From the NCBI RefSeq assembly GCF_031082295.1, contig NZ_JAVHLD010000002.1, positions 172,042 through 236,041 on the forward strand: a stretch of 64,000 nt of DNA, in the 5' to 3' direction. This DNA comes from Humidesulfovibrio sp. GTDB lineage: Bacteria > Desulfobacterota > Desulfovibrionia > Desulfovibrionales > Desulfovibrionaceae. Below are positions 30,599 to 63,924 of the stretch, piece by piece. The first letter of the stretch is position 1; each line of letters starts with the position of its first letter. Below the pieces are notes generated by a model that did not search any database, was not told where the DNA came from, and saw nothing but the letters and a program-made list of their open reading frames with translations. Made by a program: the position numbers and the translations under genes.

Positions 30599-32515
30599 CT
30601 AGCGCTTGCGCAGCTTGCGGTTGTCGCCCACGCGCACGGTGAGCTTTTCCTTGTCGAAATACTCCAGGAGCGGAATGGCGTACTTGCGCGACAAACCGGA
30701 CACCTCGCGGAAATCCTGCGGGTGCATGTCCTCGTGCGTGGCGAAGAAGGCCACGACCTTTTCGATCAGGCCCGCCACGGAAGTGGCGTCGAAGTACATC
30801 TCCTCCTTGATCTTCACGAGCAGCCCTTCGTCCTGCAGAACCTTGAACACCGGCGCCGCCTCCTTGAAGGTCAGGTCCAGGGGTTCAAGCACGTCCTTCA
30901 TGTTCGGCGGGGTCAGGCCTCCCGCGGTGTAGGCGTCCAGAAGCTTCTGGCGCAGGCTCGCGGCGTCCGAGGCGAGCGACACCTTGTGCCCGGGCAGGCG
31001 CAACATTTCCTGGTCCGCGGCTATGGCGCCCTTGCGCAGCAGGCCTTCCAGCACCAGGTGGAACAGCTTCGGACTCAGGCGCTTGCCCCAGGTGGAGGCG
31101 AGCCCGCCGCGCGCAACGCCTGGCTTCATGGGCTCGCGCGAATGGAAGTCGGCCAGATGCGCCAGCAGGCCCTCTGACAACGCCTGGACAACCTTGCCCG
31201 ACACGTAGACGCGTGCCTCGCGGTCGATGAGAAAGGCCTCCTGCCGCCCGCCCATGAGCTGCAGCGCCTTTTCCAGCGCCTTGGATTCCATGCTGCTGGC
31301 AACCAGCAACTGCGCGAAGGACAGCCCGGCGTTGGCCGCCAGCTCAAGCTGCGCCAGCACGATGTCCTCCGGGGCTGAAGCGCCCAGGCTGCGCAAGGTC
31401 TCCACAGCCGGGGAAAAACGCTTCACCCGGTGCGGCAGGGGCGACAGCAGCCGCCCGCCGGCGATGGTCCTGAGCGGCGAAAAAGAGCGCGCCACCACGC
31501 GGTCGCCGAACACCCCGGCCAGGGGCTCGGTAAAGCGGATGCGGCAGATGGCGGTCTGGCCCGGTTCGAGCGCCTCGCCCTCCAGCATGTAGACCCTGGC
31601 CATGACCTCGCGCGCGCCGTGGTGGAAGTGCACTTCCTTGCGGTGCTTGATGGACCTGGGCGAAGACTTCAGGCAGGTCAGCTCCACGTCCCAGGAAAGG
31701 CTGGGAAACAGCGAGCCGGGCCGGGCCAGCACGTCCCCGCGCGAGAGCTCCTCCACCTCCAGGCCGGACAGGTTCACCGCCGTGCGGCTGCCGGCGGCGA
31801 CCTCCTCCACCTGGGCGCCATGGGATTGCAGGGTGCGCACCTTGGTGGCCAGCCCCTTGGGGAACACGGTCACGTCCTCGCCCACCTTGATCTTGCCGGA
31901 CACCAGCGTGCCGGTGACCACGGTGCCATAGCCCTTCATGGTGAACACGCGGTCCACCGGCAGACGGAACAGGTCCGAGCGGCGATGGGGCTGGAAGGCA
32001 TCGACGAGCTTGGCCAGCTCGGCCTTGAGTTCCGGCAGGCCCGCCCCGGTGTGGGCGGACACGGGCAGGATGGGCGAACCTTCGAGGAATGAACCTTTGA
32101 GGTAGGTGGCCACCTCCTCCTCCACCATCATGAGCCAGTCCGGCTCCACCATGTCGACCTTGGTGAGGGCCACGACGCCCGTGGTGATGCCAAGCAGCGA
32201 GCAGATTTCCAGGTGCTCGCGGGTCTGGGGCATGATGCCCTCGTCCGCGGCGATGACCAGCACCACGAAGTCGATGCCCGCGGCGCCCGCCACCATGTTC
32301 TTCACGAAGCGTTCGTGGCCAGGCACGTCCACCACGCCAAGCCTCTTCACGCCAGACTTGCCGCCCGGCAGTTCCATGAAGGCGAAGCCAAGCTCGATGG
32401 TGATGCCGCGCTTCTTCTCCTCGGCCAGGCGGTCGCAGTCGATGCCCGTGAGGGCCTTGACCAGCGTCGTCTTGCCGTGGTCGATATGCCCGGCGGTGCC
32501 CATGATGACCGGCAT
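30599..32515 (-). CDS. selB: Selenocysteine-specific elongation factor
   Basis: 638 residues. The GTPase domain has [28 protein letters not shown] and TKVD. EF-Tu-like domains 2 and 3 follow, then a C-terminal extension of winged helices (about 380-638, ending in [20 protein letters not shown]) that binds the SECIS hairpin of the mRNA. It delivers Sec-tRNA(Sec) to in-frame UGA codons. AGGAG lies 4 bases before ATG. Last gene of folC-selA-aminopeptidase-selB; 9 bases after the aminopeptidase. Confidence 0.96.
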
Positions 32516-33959: not shown

Positions 33960-35408
33960 TCAGTCATCGCCCAGGGCCTGACGCAAGGCGTCAAGAACCA
34001 GGGCGTGCTCGGAAATATCCAGCGTGCGCGGGTCCAGGCAAAAGGCCCCATCCTCCACGCGGCCCACCAGCGGCGGGTCCGTGGCCAGAAGCGCCTGGCG
34101 CAGCCCGTCGATGCTCAGCCGCGAGCCCTCGTTGAGGCGAAGCGCCACCAGCTCCGTGGGCAGGTCGGCCTCGGGGAAGGCCCCGCCGCCCACGCGTGAC
34201 ACGCCCCGCCGCACGGCCACATCGAGCCGCCCGTCGAGGCTGGCGGACAGGTGCTTCCGTAAAAGCCCGGCCAGGCGCGAGGCCTGGGCGCGCAGACTCG
34301 AAAGCGGTCGGGTCATCATGGCCAGGGTGGGCACCCCGGCCTTGGCCAGCTCCGGGTCCAGGTACAACCGCAGGGTGGCCTCCAGGGCCGCCACGGTCAG
34401 CTTGTCGATGCGCAGGGCGCGGTTCAGCGGATTCTTCTTGATGCGCTCGATGAACTCGCGGCGTCCGACGATGATGCCCGCCTGCGGCCCACCCAAGACC
34501 TTGTCCCCGGAGAAGGTGACCACGTCCGCGCCGTCGGCTATGGCCTCGCTGGCCGATGGCTCGCCGGGCAGGCCGTCGGCCTCGAAACGCATGAGGCTGC
34601 CGCTGCCCAGGTCCTCGATGACCGGCAGGCCGAAGGTGGAGGCCAGGGTCTTGAGTTCGCCCAGCGGCACCTCCTTCACGAAGCCCACCTGCCGGAAGTT
34701 GGAGGTGTGGACCTTCATGAGGGCCGCGGTTTCCGAGCCGATGGCGGCTTCGTAGTCGCGCAGGTGCGTGCGGTTGGTGGCGCCGACCTCGCGCAGGATG
34801 CACCCGCTCTTGGCCATGACCTCGGGGATGCGGAAGCTCCCGCCGATCTCGACCAGCTGCCCGCGCGAGACGATGACCTCGCGGCCCTTGCACAGGGTGT
34901 CCAGCACGATGAGCACGGCGGCCGCGTTGTTGTTCACCACCAGCGCGGCCTCGGCCCCGGTAAGGCGGCAGAGCAGCGCCTCCACATGGGAGTAGCGGCT
35001 TCCCCGCTCCCCAGTGGCGAGGTCGAACTCGAGATTGGAATAGTGCGCGGCGGCCTCGGCCACTGCGGCCACGGCCTCTCGGGCCAGGAGCGAGCGTCCC
35101 ATGTTGGTGTGCACGACCACGCCGGTGCCGTTCAGCACGCGGCGAAAGCGGGGCTTGGCCCCCTGGCGCACAAAGGCCAGCATGCGCGGATAGAGCGCGG
35201 TGAGCGAAAGCTGCGCCGCGTCGGAAAAGGCACCGGCGCGGATCTCCTCGCGCACGAGGTCGAGGAAGGAGTTGACCAGATCCTTGACCAGCGGACGCGG
35301 AACGCCCTGCAGGACCGGCTGCGCCGTCTTGCCGATGCGGACGGTGTCCGCGGCCAGGGCGGCCAGGCACTGGTCAACGGCGGGAAGGTGGCGAAAAAGT
35401 GTGCTCAC
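33960..35408 (-). CDS. selA: L-seryl-tRNA(Sec) selenium transferase
   Basis: 482 residues, full length. An N-terminal tRNA-binding region is followed by a fold-type I PLP domain; the PLP lysine is in TFSGDKVLGGPQAG (about residue 303). NGTGVVVHTNMGRSLL is the conserved SelA stretch near residue 93. SelA converts Ser-tRNA(Sec) to Sec-tRNA(Sec) using selenophosphate. The start overlaps the folC stop by 4 bases, and selB lies downstream in the same run. selC and selD are not in the window. Confidence 0.96.
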   Translation of the reverse strand: MSTLFRHLPAVDQCLAALAADTVRIGKTAQPVLQGVPRPLVKDLVNSFLDLVREEIRAGAFSDAAQLSLTALYPRMLAFVRQGAKPRFRRVLNGTGVVVHTNMGRSLLAREAVAAVAEAAAHYSNLEFDLATGERGSRYSHVEALLCRLTGAEAALVVNNNAAAVLIVLDTLCKGREVIVSRGQLVEIGGSFRIPEVMAKSGCILREVGATNRTHLRDYEAAIGSETAALMKVHTSNFRQVGFVKEVPLGELKTLASTFGLPVIEDLGSGSLMRFEADGLPGEPSASEAIADGADVVTFSGDKVLGGPQAGIIVGRREFIERIKKNPLNRALRIDKLTVAALEATLRLYLDPELAKAGVPTLAMMTRPLSSLRAQASRLAGLLRKHLSASLDGRLDVAVRRGVSRVGGGAFPEADLPTELVALRLNEGSRLSIDGLRQALLATDPPLVGRVEDGAFCLDPRTLDISEHALVLDALRQALGDD

Positions 35409-56466: not shown

Positions 56467-57939
56467 ATGAACAAGAAATTTGCACTGCTCATGGTGCTGG
56501 TGGCTGCCCTGGTCATGGGCACCATTTCCAGCGCCGCCGCAGCCGAGATCAAAGCCAACGGAGCTTGGCAGATCGAAGCTGACTTTAACGTCAACAACGA
56601 CTTCCAGAAGAAGGGCGGCGTCTCCGAAGACAAGACCTTCAATATCGCTCAGCGCGTGCGCCAGAGCTTCCAGTTCATCGCCAACGAGAACCTGAAAGGC
56701 GTCCTCGAAGTCCAGCTTGGCACCGCCAACTGGGGCACCGGCGCCCTGGGCATCGGCGCTGGCCGCTCCGCCAGCCTGACCGCCACTGGCTCCGCCTCCG
56801 CTGGTAACGGCAACTTCATGCTCCGCAAGGGCTATGTTGACTTCAAGTGGCCCGGCACCAAGGTCAACTTCCTCGTCGGCTTCCAGAGCCTGTCCCTGCC
56901 CTCCGCCGTTGGCGGCGGCAGCCCGGTTCTTGACGACCACTTCGCCGCCGCTGCGGCTGTTGTGCCCGTCACCGACGGCCTGTCCCTGGTTGGTGGCTTC
57001 GGTCGTCTTTACGACGCCAACTCTGCCACCTCCACCACCGCTGGCAACCTGTCCGGCTCCCACAACAATGGCGACGTGGCCTTCTTGATCGCCAACGTCG
57101 ACATGTTCAAGGGCTTCTCCATCAAGCCTTGGGTTGCTTACGCCTCCCTGGGCAAGGACGTCGCTGGTGCCGGCACCGGCGCCACCGCGCTGGCCGGTTT
57201 CGCTGGTGCCAACTCCTCCGCCAACGAAGGCGTTCGCGCCTACTGGGGCGGCGCCGCCTTCACCATGACCGCTTTCGACCCCTTCAAGGTCATGGCTGAC
57301 TTCAACTACGGCAAGGCCACCTGGAACAACCAGAGTTCCCTCAACAACGCCAAGGGCGGCCGTCAGGGCTTCCTGGCCGACATCGCTGTCGACTACACTG
57401 GCCTTTCCATGATGACCCCCTCCGTGTTCTTCGCTTACTCCAGCGGTGAGTCCGGAAACAGCACCGATGGTGGCAAGTCTGACCGCATGCCTGTCGTCGG
57501 CACCCCGCAAAACTACGCTCTGGGTTCCTTCTGGCTGCAGGGCGGCGACAGCTTGAACATGTCCTACAATGCTCCTTCGACCACCATGGGTTACTGGGCT
57601 CTTGGCCTGTCCCTGAAGGACATCAAGCTCATCGACAAGCTGTCCCACACCGTGCACCTGATCTACTTCAAGGGCACCAACGATCCTGACTTCCTGAAGG
57701 ACACCACTGCTGGCAACGGCGTCACCTACAGCAACTTCCTGACCAACAAGGACTCCCTGTGGGAAGTTGACGTGAACACCAAGTACCAGATCTACGATGA
57801 ACTGTCCCTGGGTCTGGAACTCGGCTACATCAACCCCAGCTTCGACAAGGACACCTGGGGTGCTGTGAACGCCGACTACAGAAACTACGGCAGCACCTCC
57901 GCTTACAAGGCCAGCCTGCTGGTCAACTACAGCTTCTAG
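56467..57939 (+). CDS. Outer-membrane homotrimeric porin 1
   Basis: 490 residues. Signal peptide of about 25 residues (KKFALLMVLVAALVMGTISS, cut after AAAA), then a beta-rich body ending in aromatic NYSF, typical of outer-membrane barrels. Glycine-, aromatic- and Asn-rich strands run throughout. Similar porins are abundant in Desulfovibrio outer membranes, where they pass small solutes. GGAAGGAAAGG precedes the ATG. It is the first of three paralogues, and shares a 72-base identical block with porin 2. Confidence 0.9.
   Translation: MNKKFALLMVLVAALVMGTISSAAAAEIKANGAWQIEADFNVNNDFQKKGGVSEDKTFNIAQRVRQSFQFIANENLKGVLEVQLGTANWGTGALGIGAGRSASLTATGSASAGNGNFMLRKGYVDFKWPGTKVNFLVGFQSLSLPSAVGGGSPVLDDHFAAAAAVVPVTDGLSLVGGFGRLYDANSATSTTAGNLSGSHNNGDVAFLIANVDMFKGFSIKPWVAYASLGKDVAGAGTGATALAGFAGANSSANEGVRAYWGGAAFTMTAFDPFKVMADFNYGKATWNNQSSLNNAKGGRQGFLADIAVDYTGLSMMTPSVFFAYSSGESGNSTDGGKSDRMPVVGTPQNYALGSFWLQGGDSLNMSYNAPSTTMGYWALGLSLKDIKLIDKLSHTVHLIYFKGTNDPDFLKDTTAGNGVTYSNFLTNKDSLWEVDVNTKYQIYDELSLGLELGYINPSFDKDTWGAVNADYRNYGSTSAYKASLLVNYSF
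56816..56887 (+). repeat. 72-bp perfect direct repeat, copy 1 (porin 1)
   Basis: Identical, including synonymous third positions, to 58501-58572 in porin 2. It encodes MLRKGYVDFKWPGTKVNFLV and flanks. Suggests recent gene conversion. Confidence 0.9.
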
Positions 57940-58101: not shown

Positions 58102-58157
58102 TCAGTTGAAGAATGGCTGATGGTGGTTCACACAACCGCAAAGAAGGGAAGGATAAC

Positions 58158-59642
58158 ATGAAAAAGCTTTACGCGATTGCCTTGCTCGGACTGATGGTCC
58201 TGGGCCTGGCTGCGACCGCTTCCGCGGCCGACATCAAAGCCTCCGGCAAATGGCAGATTGAAGCGAACATGCAGAACGCCGACTTCATGGACAAAGGCGC
58301 TTCTACCAGCGAAGACAAGACCTTCAACATTGAGCAGCGCGTGCGCACCGCCTTCCAGTTCATCGCCAACGAGAACCTGAAGGGCGTCCTCGACCTGCAG
58401 ATCGGAGCTGCCAACTGGGGTACTGGCGCACTCGGCATCGGCGCTGGCCGCTCTGCCAGCCTGACGGCCACTGGCGCTGCCTCTGCCGGCAACGGCAACA
58501 TCATGCTCCGCAAGGGCTATGTTGACTTCAAGTGGCCCGGCACCAAGGTCAACTTCCTCGTCGGCTTCCAGACTGTGTCCCTGCCCGCGGCCTTCGGCGG
58601 CGGCAGCGCCATTCTGGACGATCAGGTTGCGGCCGCCCTGGTCAGCACTCCGATCACCGACAACATCTCCCTGCTGGCTGGTTATGCCCGCCCCTACGAC
58701 ACCAACAGCTCCGTCAGCACCACCGCTGGTAACCTGTCTGGTTCCGGCACCTCCGGCGATGTTGTTTTCGCCGCTGTGCCCCTTAACTTCAAAGGCGTGA
58801 ACGTGACCCCGTTCGCCGCTTACGCCAGCCTTGGCTCCAAGCTTGGCGCCCCCGGCCTGGTTGGCCTGGTTGCCGGCAACAGCACCAGCGGTGAAGGCGC
58901 TCGCGCCTACTTCGGTGGTGTCGCCGCCACTGTCACCATGCTCGACAACTTCAAGTTCATGGGCGACTTCAACTACGGCAAGGCTACCTTCAACTCCCTG
59001 TCCACCCCCAATCTTGGCAGCACCACCCGCTCCGGTTGGATGGCTGACATCGCCGTTGACTACACTGGCCTGAAGATGATGACCCCGTCCGCCTTCTTCG
59101 TGTACTCCTCCGGCGAGAAGGGCAACTCCACCGAGCACGCCGGTTCCAACCGCATGCCCAGCCTTGGCAACCCGCAGAACTGGGCCGTTGGCTCCTTCTT
59201 CTTCGGCGACCGCAACTTCATCAACGGCTTCCCCGGCAGCGCTGGCTACGTGCAGCGCGTGATGGGCTTCTGGACCGCTGGCGTGTCCTTGAAGGACATC
59301 AAGCTCATCGACAAGATGACCCACACCGCCCACCTCTTGTACGTCAAGGGCACCAACGACAAGAACTCCATCAACGAAGACATGGGCAACAACATCAACC
59401 TTGCCAACAACATGAACTACGGCGGCTTCCTGACCACCAAGGACTCCCTGTGGGAAGTGGACTTCAACACCAAGTACATGATCTACGACGAACTGGCTGT
59501 TAACCTCGACCTGGGTTACATCAACGCCAACTTCGACAAGGATCTGTGGGGCGCTTCCTCCAAGACCGCTGCTGCTGACTACCAGAACTACGGTAGCAAC
59601 AACGCTTACAGCGCCCGTCTTGGCGTCGCTTACAGCTTCTAG
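58158..59642 (+). CDS. Outer-membrane homotrimeric porin 2
   Basis: 494 residues from the ATG with AAGGGAAGGA; the frame is open back to 58113, without a ribosome-binding site. Signal peptide KKLYAIALLGLMVLGLAATA. Very close to porin 1 in the first third (for example FQFIANENLKGVL and IGAGRSASLTATG), with a terminal AYSF. Loop regions differ, as expected for surface-exposed parts. Own promoter and terminator, so expression can be independent of its neighbours. Confidence 0.9.
   Translation: MKKLYAIALLGLMVLGLAATASAADIKASGKWQIEANMQNADFMDKGASTSEDKTFNIEQRVRTAFQFIANENLKGVLDLQIGAANWGTGALGIGAGRSASLTATGAASAGNGNIMLRKGYVDFKWPGTKVNFLVGFQTVSLPAAFGGGSAILDDQVAAALVSTPITDNISLLAGYARPYDTNSSVSTTAGNLSGSGTSGDVVFAAVPLNFKGVNVTPFAAYASLGSKLGAPGLVGLVAGNSTSGEGARAYFGGVAATVTMLDNFKFMGDFNYGKATFNSLSTPNLGSTTRSGWMADIAVDYTGLKMMTPSAFFVYSSGEKGNSTEHAGSNRMPSLGNPQNWAVGSFFFGDRNFINGFPGSAGYVQRVMGFWTAGVSLKDIKLIDKMTHTAHLLYVKGTNDKNSINEDMGNNINLANNMNYGGFLTTKDSLWEVDFNTKYMIYDELAVNLDLGYINANFDKDLWGASSKTAAADYQNYGSNNAYSARLGVAYSF
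58501..58572 (+). repeat. 72-bp perfect direct repeat, copy 2 (porin 2)
   Basis: See copy 1 at 56816-56887. The two copies are 1685 bases apart in the same orientation, a substrate for recombination that would fuse porins 1 and 2. Confidence 0.9.
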
Positions 59643-59830: not shown

Positions 59831-61315
59831 ATGAAAAAATTCTGGGTTCTCGGACTGGCTGTATTCCTTCTTGTCGCGTCGGCAAGCTTGTCGTTTGGCA
59901 TGGAGATGAAGGCCAAGGGCTACTGGTGGATCGAAGCCCAGATGAAGCAGGGCTGGGATTTTCTGGACAAGGGCGCCATCAGCGAGGAAAAGCCCTTCAA
60001 CCTCGAACAAAAGATGCGCACCCAGTTCCAGTTCATCGCCAACGAAAACCTGCGCGGCATTCTTGATACCCAGATTGGCGCCGCCAACTGGGGTAATGGC
60101 CTCTTCGGCATCGGCGCTGGCCGCTCCGCCAGCCTGACCGCCGCTGGCGCAAACTCCGCTGGCAACGGCAACATCATGCTTCGCAAGGCCTACATCGAAT
60201 ACCGTTGGCCTAACACCATGACGAATATTTCGCTCGGTTTCCAGACCGTCACCCTGCCTGCGGCCTTTGGCGGCGGCAGCGCCATTCTTGACGACCAGGT
60301 GGCCGCTGCGGTTGTGAGCGCTCCCATTACCGACAACGTCTCCATCCTGGCTGGTTACGCCCGTCCCTACGATTCCAACAGCGCTGCAAGCACCACCGCT
60401 GGCAATCTTACCGGCTCTGGTACTGCCGCTGATATCGTCTTCGCCGCCGTGCCCCTTACCTTCAAGGGTTACAGCATCACGCCTTTTGCCGCATACGCCA
60501 ATGTGGGTTCCACTTCCGTGAACGGAAACGGCGCCGGTACAACTGCTGGGTTTGCTTCCGCGAACAGCTCCGCTGGTGAAGGAATCCGCGCCTACTGGGG
60601 TGGTATCGCCGCTACTGTGACCGCGCTGGAAAACTTCAAGATCATGTCCGACTTCAATTACGGCAAGGCCACGTACAATAACCCCGTTGCCCAGAACGGC
60701 AAGGGCGGTCGCTCCGGCTTCCTGTTCGACTTGGCGGTGGACTACACCGGCCTGTCCATGATGACCCCCCAGGTGTTCTTTACCTACTCCTCCGGTGAAA
60801 ACGGCAACAGCTCCAAGGGTGGCGGCTCCGAGCGCATGCCCGTGGTCAATGCTCCCCAGAACTGGACCATCGGCTCCTTCTTCTTCGGCGAGCGCCTCGA
60901 ACTTGGCGGCTCCATCAACAACACCGCTGGCTACACCAGCAACACCCTTGGCTACTGGGCCCTCGGCATGTCCCTGAAGGACATCAAACTTATCGACAAG
61001 CTCAGCCATGACTTCAACCTGCTCTACGCCAAGGGCACCAACAACAAGGACTACTTGTACGAGTCCGGCGGCACCGTGCGCAACGCTAACTACGCAGGTT
61101 TCCTGACCACCAAGGACTCCTTGTGGGAAGTGGACTTCAACACCCGCTACAAGATCTACGACGAGCTGACCCTGCTGGTGTACACCGGCTACATCCATGC
61201 CGACTTCGACAAGGACGTCTGGGGCGCCTCCAGCGTCACCAACGCTGCCGACATCCAGAACTATGGCACGAGCAACGCCTACAAGCTCGGCGTCGGCCTG
61301 AACTACTTCTTCTAG
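59831..61315 (+). CDS. Outer-membrane homotrimeric porin 3
   Basis: 494 residues. Signal peptide KKFWVLGLAVFLLVASASLS. It shares the porin core with the two upstream copies (FQFIANENLRGIL, GIGAGRSASLTAAG, LKDIKLIDKLSH) but is the most divergent of the three, for example in the N-terminal strand (MEMKAKGYWWIEAQ). It ends with LNYFF. Own promoter and terminator. Solute preference is unknown. Confidence 0.9.
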   Translation: MKKFWVLGLAVFLLVASASLSFGMEMKAKGYWWIEAQMKQGWDFLDKGAISEEKPFNLEQKMRTQFQFIANENLRGILDTQIGAANWGNGLFGIGAGRSASLTAAGANSAGNGNIMLRKAYIEYRWPNTMTNISLGFQTVTLPAAFGGGSAILDDQVAAAVVSAPITDNVSILAGYARPYDSNSAASTTAGNLTGSGTAADIVFAAVPLTFKGYSITPFAAYANVGSTSVNGNGAGTTAGFASANSSAGEGIRAYWGGIAATVTALENFKIMSDFNYGKATYNNPVAQNGKGGRSGFLFDLAVDYTGLSMMTPQVFFTYSSGENGNSSKGGGSERMPVVNAPQNWTIGSFFFGERLELGGSINNTAGYTSNTLGYWALGMSLKDIKLIDKLSHDFNLLYAKGTNNKDYLYESGGTVRNANYAGFLTTKDSLWEVDFNTRYKIYDELTLLVYTGYIHADFDKDVWGASSVTNAADIQNYGTSNAYKLGVGLNYFF

Positions 61316-62847: not shown

Positions 62848-63756
62848 ATGCAATGCGTCATCAACACTGACATCAAGGATTATCCGCTGCTCTCGCGCGG
62901 CAAGGTGCGCGACATCTACGAGATCAGCCCGGAGACCCTGCTCATTGTCACCACTGACCGCATCTCGGCCTTTGACGTGATCATGGACGATCCCATTCCG
63001 CACAAGGGCGTGGTTCTGAACCAGATCACCCTGTTCTGGATGGAGAAATTCGCAAGCCTCGTACCCAACCACCTTTTGGCGACTGACGTGAAGGACTTTC
63101 CCAAGCCCTTGCAGGCCCACGCCGACCTGCTGGAAGGCCGTGCCGTGCTTGTGCGCCGCGCCAAGCCTCTGGCCATAGAGTGCATCGTGCGCGGCTACAT
63201 CACCGGAAGTGGCTGGAAGGACTACCAGAAGTCCGGCCAGGTCTGCGGCCACACCTTGCCCGTGGGCCTGCGCGAGTCCGACAAGCTCGCCAAGCCGCTG
63301 TTCACGCCGTCCACCAAGGCCGAGCTCGGGGAACACGACGAGAACATCTCCGTGGCCGACGCCATGCGCATCACCGGAGAGTCGCTGGCCACCCAGGCCC
63401 AGGATCTGGCGCTGTCCATCTACTCCGCCGGGCGCGACTACGCCGAGGGACGCGGCATCATCATCGCGGACACGAAGTTTGAGTTCGGCACCGTGAACGA
63501 GGGCGGCAAGGAAGCGTTGATCCTCATCGACGAGGTGCTGACCCCGGACTCCTCGCGTTTCTGGCCCATGAGCGACTATGCGCCCGGCCGCGGCCAGCAG
63601 AGCTTCGACAAGCAGTTCCTGCGCGACTGGCTGGAGCAGATAAAGTTCAACAAGCGCCCTCCCGCCCCCAAGATCCCGCAGGAGATCATCGACCAGACCA
63701 GGGCCAAGTACCTGGAGGCCTATCGCCTGCTCACCGGGCGCGACCTGGGCGTATAA
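62848..63756 (+). CDS. purC: Phosphoribosylaminoimidazole-succinocarboxamide synthase
   Basis: 302 residues. The start region LLSRGKVRDIYEISPETLLI, the family stretch IECIVRGYITGSGWKDYQ and the late LIDEVLTPDSSRFWP are intact; length matches the longer SAICAR synthases. It joins aspartate to CAIR with ATP in purine synthesis. A small selenoprotein-like gene starts 9 bases downstream, with its ribosome-binding site overlapping the purC stop. Confidence 0.97.
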   Translation: MQCVINTDIKDYPLLSRGKVRDIYEISPETLLIVTTDRISAFDVIMDDPIPHKGVVLNQITLFWMEKFASLVPNHLLATDVKDFPKPLQAHADLLEGRAVLVRRAKPLAIECIVRGYITGSGWKDYQKSGQVCGHTLPVGLRESDKLAKPLFTPSTKAELGEHDENISVADAMRITGESLATQAQDLALSIYSAGRDYAEGRGIIIADTKFEFGTVNEGGKEALILIDEVLTPDSSRFWPMSDYAPGRGQQSFDKQFLRDWLEQIKFNKRPPAPKIPQEIIDQTRAKYLEAYRLLTGRDLGV

Positions 63757-63765
63757 GGAGCAATC

Positions 63766-63924
63766 ATGGACGCTGGATGGATTCTTCTGGCCGTGGTGGT
63801 GGCGTGGTTCGCCATCTCCAGGCTCGTGCCGGGCATGGGCGGGGGCTGAGGCCCCAAGAAGGAGTGCGGCTGGACGCCGCCGAAGGATGCTGACAAGAAG
63901 GACAAGAACGCTCCAGACAAATAG
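63766..63924 (+). CDS. Predicted small membrane selenoprotein (in-frame TGA read as selenocysteine)
   Basis: A 52-residue gene if TGA at 63847-63849 is read as selenocysteine; otherwise a 27-residue peptide. The ATG has a strong TAAGGAG site overlapping the purC stop. Residues 1-20 form one membrane helix (GWILLAVVVAWFAISRLV); residues 24-28 are MGGG-U; then comes GPKKECGWTPPK and a Lys/Asp-rich tail to TAG. Sequence after the TGA keeps GC-rich third codon positions and lacks further stops until TAG. Sec28 and Cys34 could form a redox pair. A SECIS-like hairpin lies downstream, and selA and selB are in the same window. The layout resembles eukaryotic SelK (membrane helix, Gly-rich, Sec), but I recognise no named bacterial family. 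Confidence 0.7.
63866..63880 (+). promoter_or_regulatory. SECIS-like hairpin after the in-frame TGA
   Basis: GCGGC (63866-63870), loop TGGAC, GCCGC (63876-63880). The loop begins 21 bases after the TGA, with G as its second base, as expected of bacterial SECIS elements. The stem is short (5 pairs). The remaining 76 bases of the window (63925-64000) hold no feature I can support. Confidence 0.5.

Follow-up and report, generated by a model that had tools for sequence, protein, structure and literature searches.

The window analyzed here is a 64,000-nucleotide stretch of a Humidesulfovibrio sp. contig (NZ_JAVHLD010000002.1). Near its end we predict a selenoprotein gene on the forward strand (63766..63924, +), based on the sequence and on conservation in a family of relatives. 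The gene runs from ATG to TAG and encodes 52 residues, provided that the in-frame UGA at 63847..63849 (+) is read as selenocysteine 28. With U for codon 28, the translation is MDAGWILLAVVVAWFAISRLVPGMGGGUGPKKECGWTPPKDADKKDKNAPDK. The codons for a single predicted membrane helix (residues 3-20, 63772..63825, +) are placed by a low-confidence structure model. A Cys34 codon (63865-63867, +) follows six residues past Sec28, and 24 codons separate the TGA from the terminal TAG (63922-63924, +). The ribosome-binding site in the sequence (AAGGAG, 63755..63760, +) lies 5 nt 5′ of the ATG and overlaps the stop codon (TAA, 63754-63756) of purC, the gene for SAICAR synthetase (62848..63756, +), which ends 9 nt before the selenoprotein start codon; the two genes are thus probably read together. 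The original prediction, made from this sequence, described a strong ribosome-binding site, a membrane helix, Gly-Gly-Gly, the in-frame TGA, 24 further codons, and the TAG; its coordinates are exact, and the Cys that it noted six residues after the TGA is present in the translated frame. Elsewhere in the window are three tandem paralogues (56467-57939, 58113-59642, and 59831-61315, all +) that encode secreted porin-like proteins of ~500 residues.

Machinery for selenocysteine insertion is present in the genome. The window contains genes for the selenocysteine elongation factor, selB (30599..32515, -; recognized from its own sequence and by TIGR00475), and for selenocysteine synthase, selA (33960..35408, -; identified from its own sequence), as the original prediction had stated. 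A tRNA-Sec gene scoring above the cut-off is located on another contig of the genome. Ten genomes that lack both selA and selB (G020, G187, G196, G201, G202, G203, G216, G349, G378, and G427) have no copy of the selenoprotein gene. It does occur in 14 genomes that gave no selB match, 10 of which have selA. Those that carry the gene with no match to either selA or selB (G013, G344, G036, and G161) are all incomplete or contaminated assemblies. We treat this co-occurrence as supporting evidence only, as related genomes are not independent. In one genus (g95), two of three sampled genomes (G383 and G441) have selA and the Sec gene with selB unmatched; their selB is divergent or missing.

The gene is widespread. 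Of 15 genomes in the genus, 14 gave a match to the full frame, and every match carries a single internal TGA at the same codon. In the order, a profile built from 39 homologues reached E <= 0.01 in 173 of 348 genomes, representing 44 of 59 genera; matches at E < 1e-6 numbered 123, of which 122 have the TGA and one, a Cys variant, does not. A profile of 60 homologues matched 55 of 118 genomes and 43 of 93 genera in a sample of the phylum, mostly outside the order. About half of the sampled genomes carry the gene, in the order and the phylum alike. We read 135 homologues, all from one phylum and from dozens of families, including 40 loci from the phylum search.

Relatives conserve residues both before and after the TGA, as the original prediction required for its support. 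Within the order, the start Met, Sec, and the Cys after it are invariant and GUGPxxxCGWxPP is the dominant core, and the tail is conserved as protein (the Cys, CGW, and a K/D-rich end). Outside the order the core is LP[RK]xGxxTU...C. In each of the 40 phylum loci the frame opens with a helix, in most cases followed by LP[RK]xGxxT, and then has the in-frame TGA (for example MKDLLIIFGFVAFWIVLQKYILPRLGVPTUMADSCAPEDREKKKNQP). A Cys lies at +3 to +10 from Sec in 122 of the 135 genes, and 13 have no nearby Cys.

Some relatives have more than one copy. Four members of the genus (L002, L004, L006, and L007) encode a second Sec gene ~20-30 nt past the first, with the sequence MWDNILFLLxxAxVVxxYVGxxLPKFGMRGUMPxPPDVWETP...; its Sec has no downstream Cys, and the L004 copy has Cys-Sec. 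This second gene is absent from the genome studied here. At L135 (G243) the selenoprotein gene is present in two tandem copies, each with its own TGA and with CGWTP in the tail. Given the 13 members and the tandem paralogue without a nearby Cys, the Sec-Cys pair is not universal, and in some copies Sec would have to rely on an external thiol.

Several candidates for stop-free relatives were rejected. The match at L030 is a chance match with neither a helix nor a Sec/Cys motif, and those at L134, L139-L142, and L144, considered as Cys orthologues, are FeoB-associated-like proteins. In the phylum search, the apparent stop-free matches stop short of the TGA, and all those that were read carry Sec. 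A single-protein contig scan matched three close relatives and no more, and searches of plasmids and of solved structures gave no useful match to the selenoprotein.

Within the coding region, 3′ of the UGA, we predict a bacterial SECIS hairpin, GCGGC-[UGGAC]-GCCGC (63866..63880, +), with a loop that begins 21 nt after the UGA. It fits the published bSECIS model, in which the loop lies 16-37 nt past the UGA with G in the first two positions of the loop (PMC13188914). The published criteria are loose, and 54% of random TGAs from the same loci satisfy them, so we rejected that test in favor of a stricter one, which requires a loop that starts with GG or GU and lies 17-25 nt from the UGA, and a stability of <= -7.5 kcal/mol. 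A hairpin of this kind occurs in 111 of 135 family genes, compared with 13 of 270 random TGAs. For 130 of 135 genes, the native hairpin is more stable than the median for synonymous-codon-randomized sequences (mean z -3.3; p-values for the hairpins are not literal, given the common ancestry of the family), so selection acts on the RNA over and above the protein. Among 70 distinct hairpins the stems contain many kinds of compensating pairs, although these hairpins had been picked for pairing. The loop stays 21 nt from the UGA whether the Cys is at +6 (the CGW subgroup) or at +7 (CSW), despite a register shift of one codon. Rfam SECIS_1 gave no match in the genome itself, and the control was likewise empty. 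On comparative evidence, the hairpin acts as a bSECIS that recruits SelB and Sec-tRNA, so that UGA28 is read as Sec.

The Sec-to-Cys variant sought among relatives does exist, but in one case only: L086 has TGC (MDYIIAIIILVALYFLLNKVILPKLGIKNCGSLPGSCKW...) and its congener L087 has TGA. The hairpin is lost in L086 (-0.5 kcal/mol) and present in L087 (-7.9), and this pair, with and without the hairpin, is a clean natural control for SECIS function. With one Cys homologue found, the family uses Sec almost exclusively.

All 135 genes have TGA as the internal codon, and their terminal stops are divided among TAG (50), TGA (44), and TAA (41); other long frames of the usual kind at these loci likewise use all three stops. 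An ordinary stop at the TGA would leave a 27-residue membrane peptide followed by a conserved regulatory RNA or untranslated element, and the hairpin region is kept at all codon positions in the genus, as an RNA might be (third-position differences of 0.061 after the UGA vs 0.261 before). However, TGA is never exchanged for TAA or TAG in the 135 genes, the tail is kept in frame as protein while the Cys spacing moves by whole codons, and the TGC relative L086 keeps this tail open and no longer has the hairpin. We regard this explanation as highly improbable. Even less credible is misreading of the UGA as another amino acid (Trp or Cys), which an open frame would permit whichever residue goes in: the genome has selA, selB, and tRNA-Sec, genomes missing selA and selB alike lack the gene, the SECIS-type hairpin is under selection, and Cys is the sole natural replacement seen. 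We are highly confident, from the comparison of sequences, that 63766-63924 is a real selenoprotein gene with UGA28 read as selenocysteine. Its identity as a selenoprotein together with its general anatomy, a predicted 52-residue single-pass membrane protein, is very likely.

The orientation in the membrane can be predicted from charge. A 17-residue window with mean hydropathy >= 1.6 is present in all but one of 132 members, and in 128 of the 132 the C-terminal flank of the helix carries more positive charge than the N-terminal one, with no member showing the reverse. The positive-inside rule relates such a bias to membrane orientation, and we therefore predict an N-out/C-in topology with Sec on the cytoplasmic face. 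The N-terminus would be outside and the basic C-terminal tail inside, placing Sec ~eight residues below the membrane. AlphaFold without an alignment gave a low-confidence helix at residues 3-20 and nothing more.

In the order, the gene is part of a recurring housekeeping block (hisD-purC-(fabI)-selenoprotein-rpsF-rpsR-rplI-dnaB), which argues for orthology and is silent on redox function. Genes for redox proteins occur next to the selenoprotein gene (SEL) in more distant relatives. Outside the order we found ArsR-SEL-TrxA-DsbH-like-TrxB (L186), ArsR-SEL with TrxA downstream (L188), SEL-TrxA (L167), TrxA-SEL with 8 nt between the genes (L176), and CcdA-SEL (L170), and the genes at L171 and L179 face or adjoin CcdA-TlpA. 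Within the order, a TlpA-like gene starts at the SEL stop in L089. Among the 40 phylum loci, eight have a thioredoxin, CcdA, or TlpA match, and in all eight it falls no more than ~1.5 kb from the gene; this zone accounts for 40% of the sequence (chance about 0.0007 under random placement). At L177, about 650-2200 nt past the Sec gene, there is an ArsR-type regulator and then a protein with an HgcA-like N-terminus by eye; the first 70 residues of the latter gave no Pfam match.

The redox neighbours outside the order suggest a role in thiol-disulfide electron transfer. We tentatively propose, from gene neighbours in distant relatives, that the protein is a cytoplasm-facing, membrane-anchored selenol that takes part in such transfer. 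Sec28 and Cys34 could form a selenenylsulfide, so the protein would most likely be a membrane-tethered selenol/thiol electron carrier or reductase. The thioredoxin system would re-reduce it, and it would give electrons to, or accept them from, membrane or envelope disulfide exchange of the CcdA/TlpA type. An alternative outlet would be the reduction of membrane-proximal oxidants.

Two other functions were considered. Sec may bind a metal or metalloid or protect the membrane, with the protein a metal-binding relative of FeoB-associated Cys-rich membrane proteins that carries no electrons. A profile-profile match to FeoB-associated-type proteins covers the helix and GCG (prob 95, E 3.8e-8), PF12669 is weakly matched by 5 of 39 members (best E 0.0055), and ArsR-type regulators adjoin the gene in some lineages. 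However, the match is mainly over the hydrophobic helix and is under the Pfam cut-off (27 bits for PF12669, not reached by the family, with one score at 8.7 bits), the family has no CxC/CxxC cluster of the kind found in the FeoB-associated group, and thioredoxin, TrxB, CcdA, and TlpA neighbours suit thiol exchange better; we consider this function unlikely. FeoB-associated-type Cys-rich one-helix proteins coexist with the Sec family at L140 and L142 (G071 and G191), and the weak profile match makes distant kinship possible. It is similarly doubtful that the selenoprotein helps to assemble a membrane enzyme complex, or senses oxidants for it, with no electron transfer of its own. Tiny single-helix proteins often serve as subunits or regulators, and the tandem paralogues in close relatives could pair, but the neighbourhood shows no consistent complex. 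Of the three functions, thiol-disulfide electron transfer is our tentative preference.

The protein apparently belongs to a new bacterial selenoprotein family that is tiny, membrane-anchored, and nearly Sec-only, and that occurs across sulfate-reducing and related bacteria. No credible NCBIfam 20.0 match was obtained for any of 49 members, and the matches to Pfam were all weak and sub-cut-off. None of the 119 prokaryotic selenoprotein families and subfamilies catalogued in a 2026 review (Table 1; PMC13188914) fits by motif, nor do the new families of the deep-Sep paper, and we found no description of the family in the open literature. Selenoprotein catalogues lean largely on Cys homologues and on callable gene length, and the family slips through both filters; standard annotation would end the 52-residue gene at the TGA. 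Conceivably, the family is a widespread part of a phylum-wide membrane thiol-electron system, from thioredoxin to CcdA-type exchange, in sulfate- and metal-reducing bacteria, and was missed because the gene is tiny, seems to end early at the UGA, and has almost no Cys homologues. It adds a Sec protein with a testable membrane role in hosts that have large selenoproteomes and environmental weight (sulfate reduction and mercury methylation).

The family has features in common with several known systems. SELENOK and SELENOS are small proteins with an N-terminal membrane helix and Gly-Sec-Gly near a basic cytosolic tail. The original prediction suggested a resemblance to them by convergence, which is fair as regards layout (a predicted N-out helix, Gly-Sec-Gly, and a basic tail); the helix and charge bias would fit a single N-terminal helix with a cytosolic Sec tail. 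However, the resemblance has no support from homology (Pfam gave no SelK/SelS match) and says little on function. Sec is in the middle of this protein with 24 residues after it, whereas it is one to three residues from the C-terminus in SELENOK and SELENOS, and here the SECIS is bacterial, inside the coding region, and in anaerobic bacterial hosts. FeoB-associated PF12669 proteins are also ~50-60 residues long with an N-terminal helix and then a Gly/Cys segment, but unlike the selenoprotein family they have a CGCG..CxxC cluster and no Sec. The in-frame UGA with a bSECIS is shared with known prokaryotic selenoprotein families, many of which have a similar Sec..Cys redox-like pair; unlike most of them, this family has almost no Cys homologues. 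With the CcdA/TlpA/DsbD relay, to which it has no sequence relation, the selenoprotein shares membrane thiol chemistry and gene neighbourhoods in several lineages, and it differs from that relay in being a single helix with Sec.
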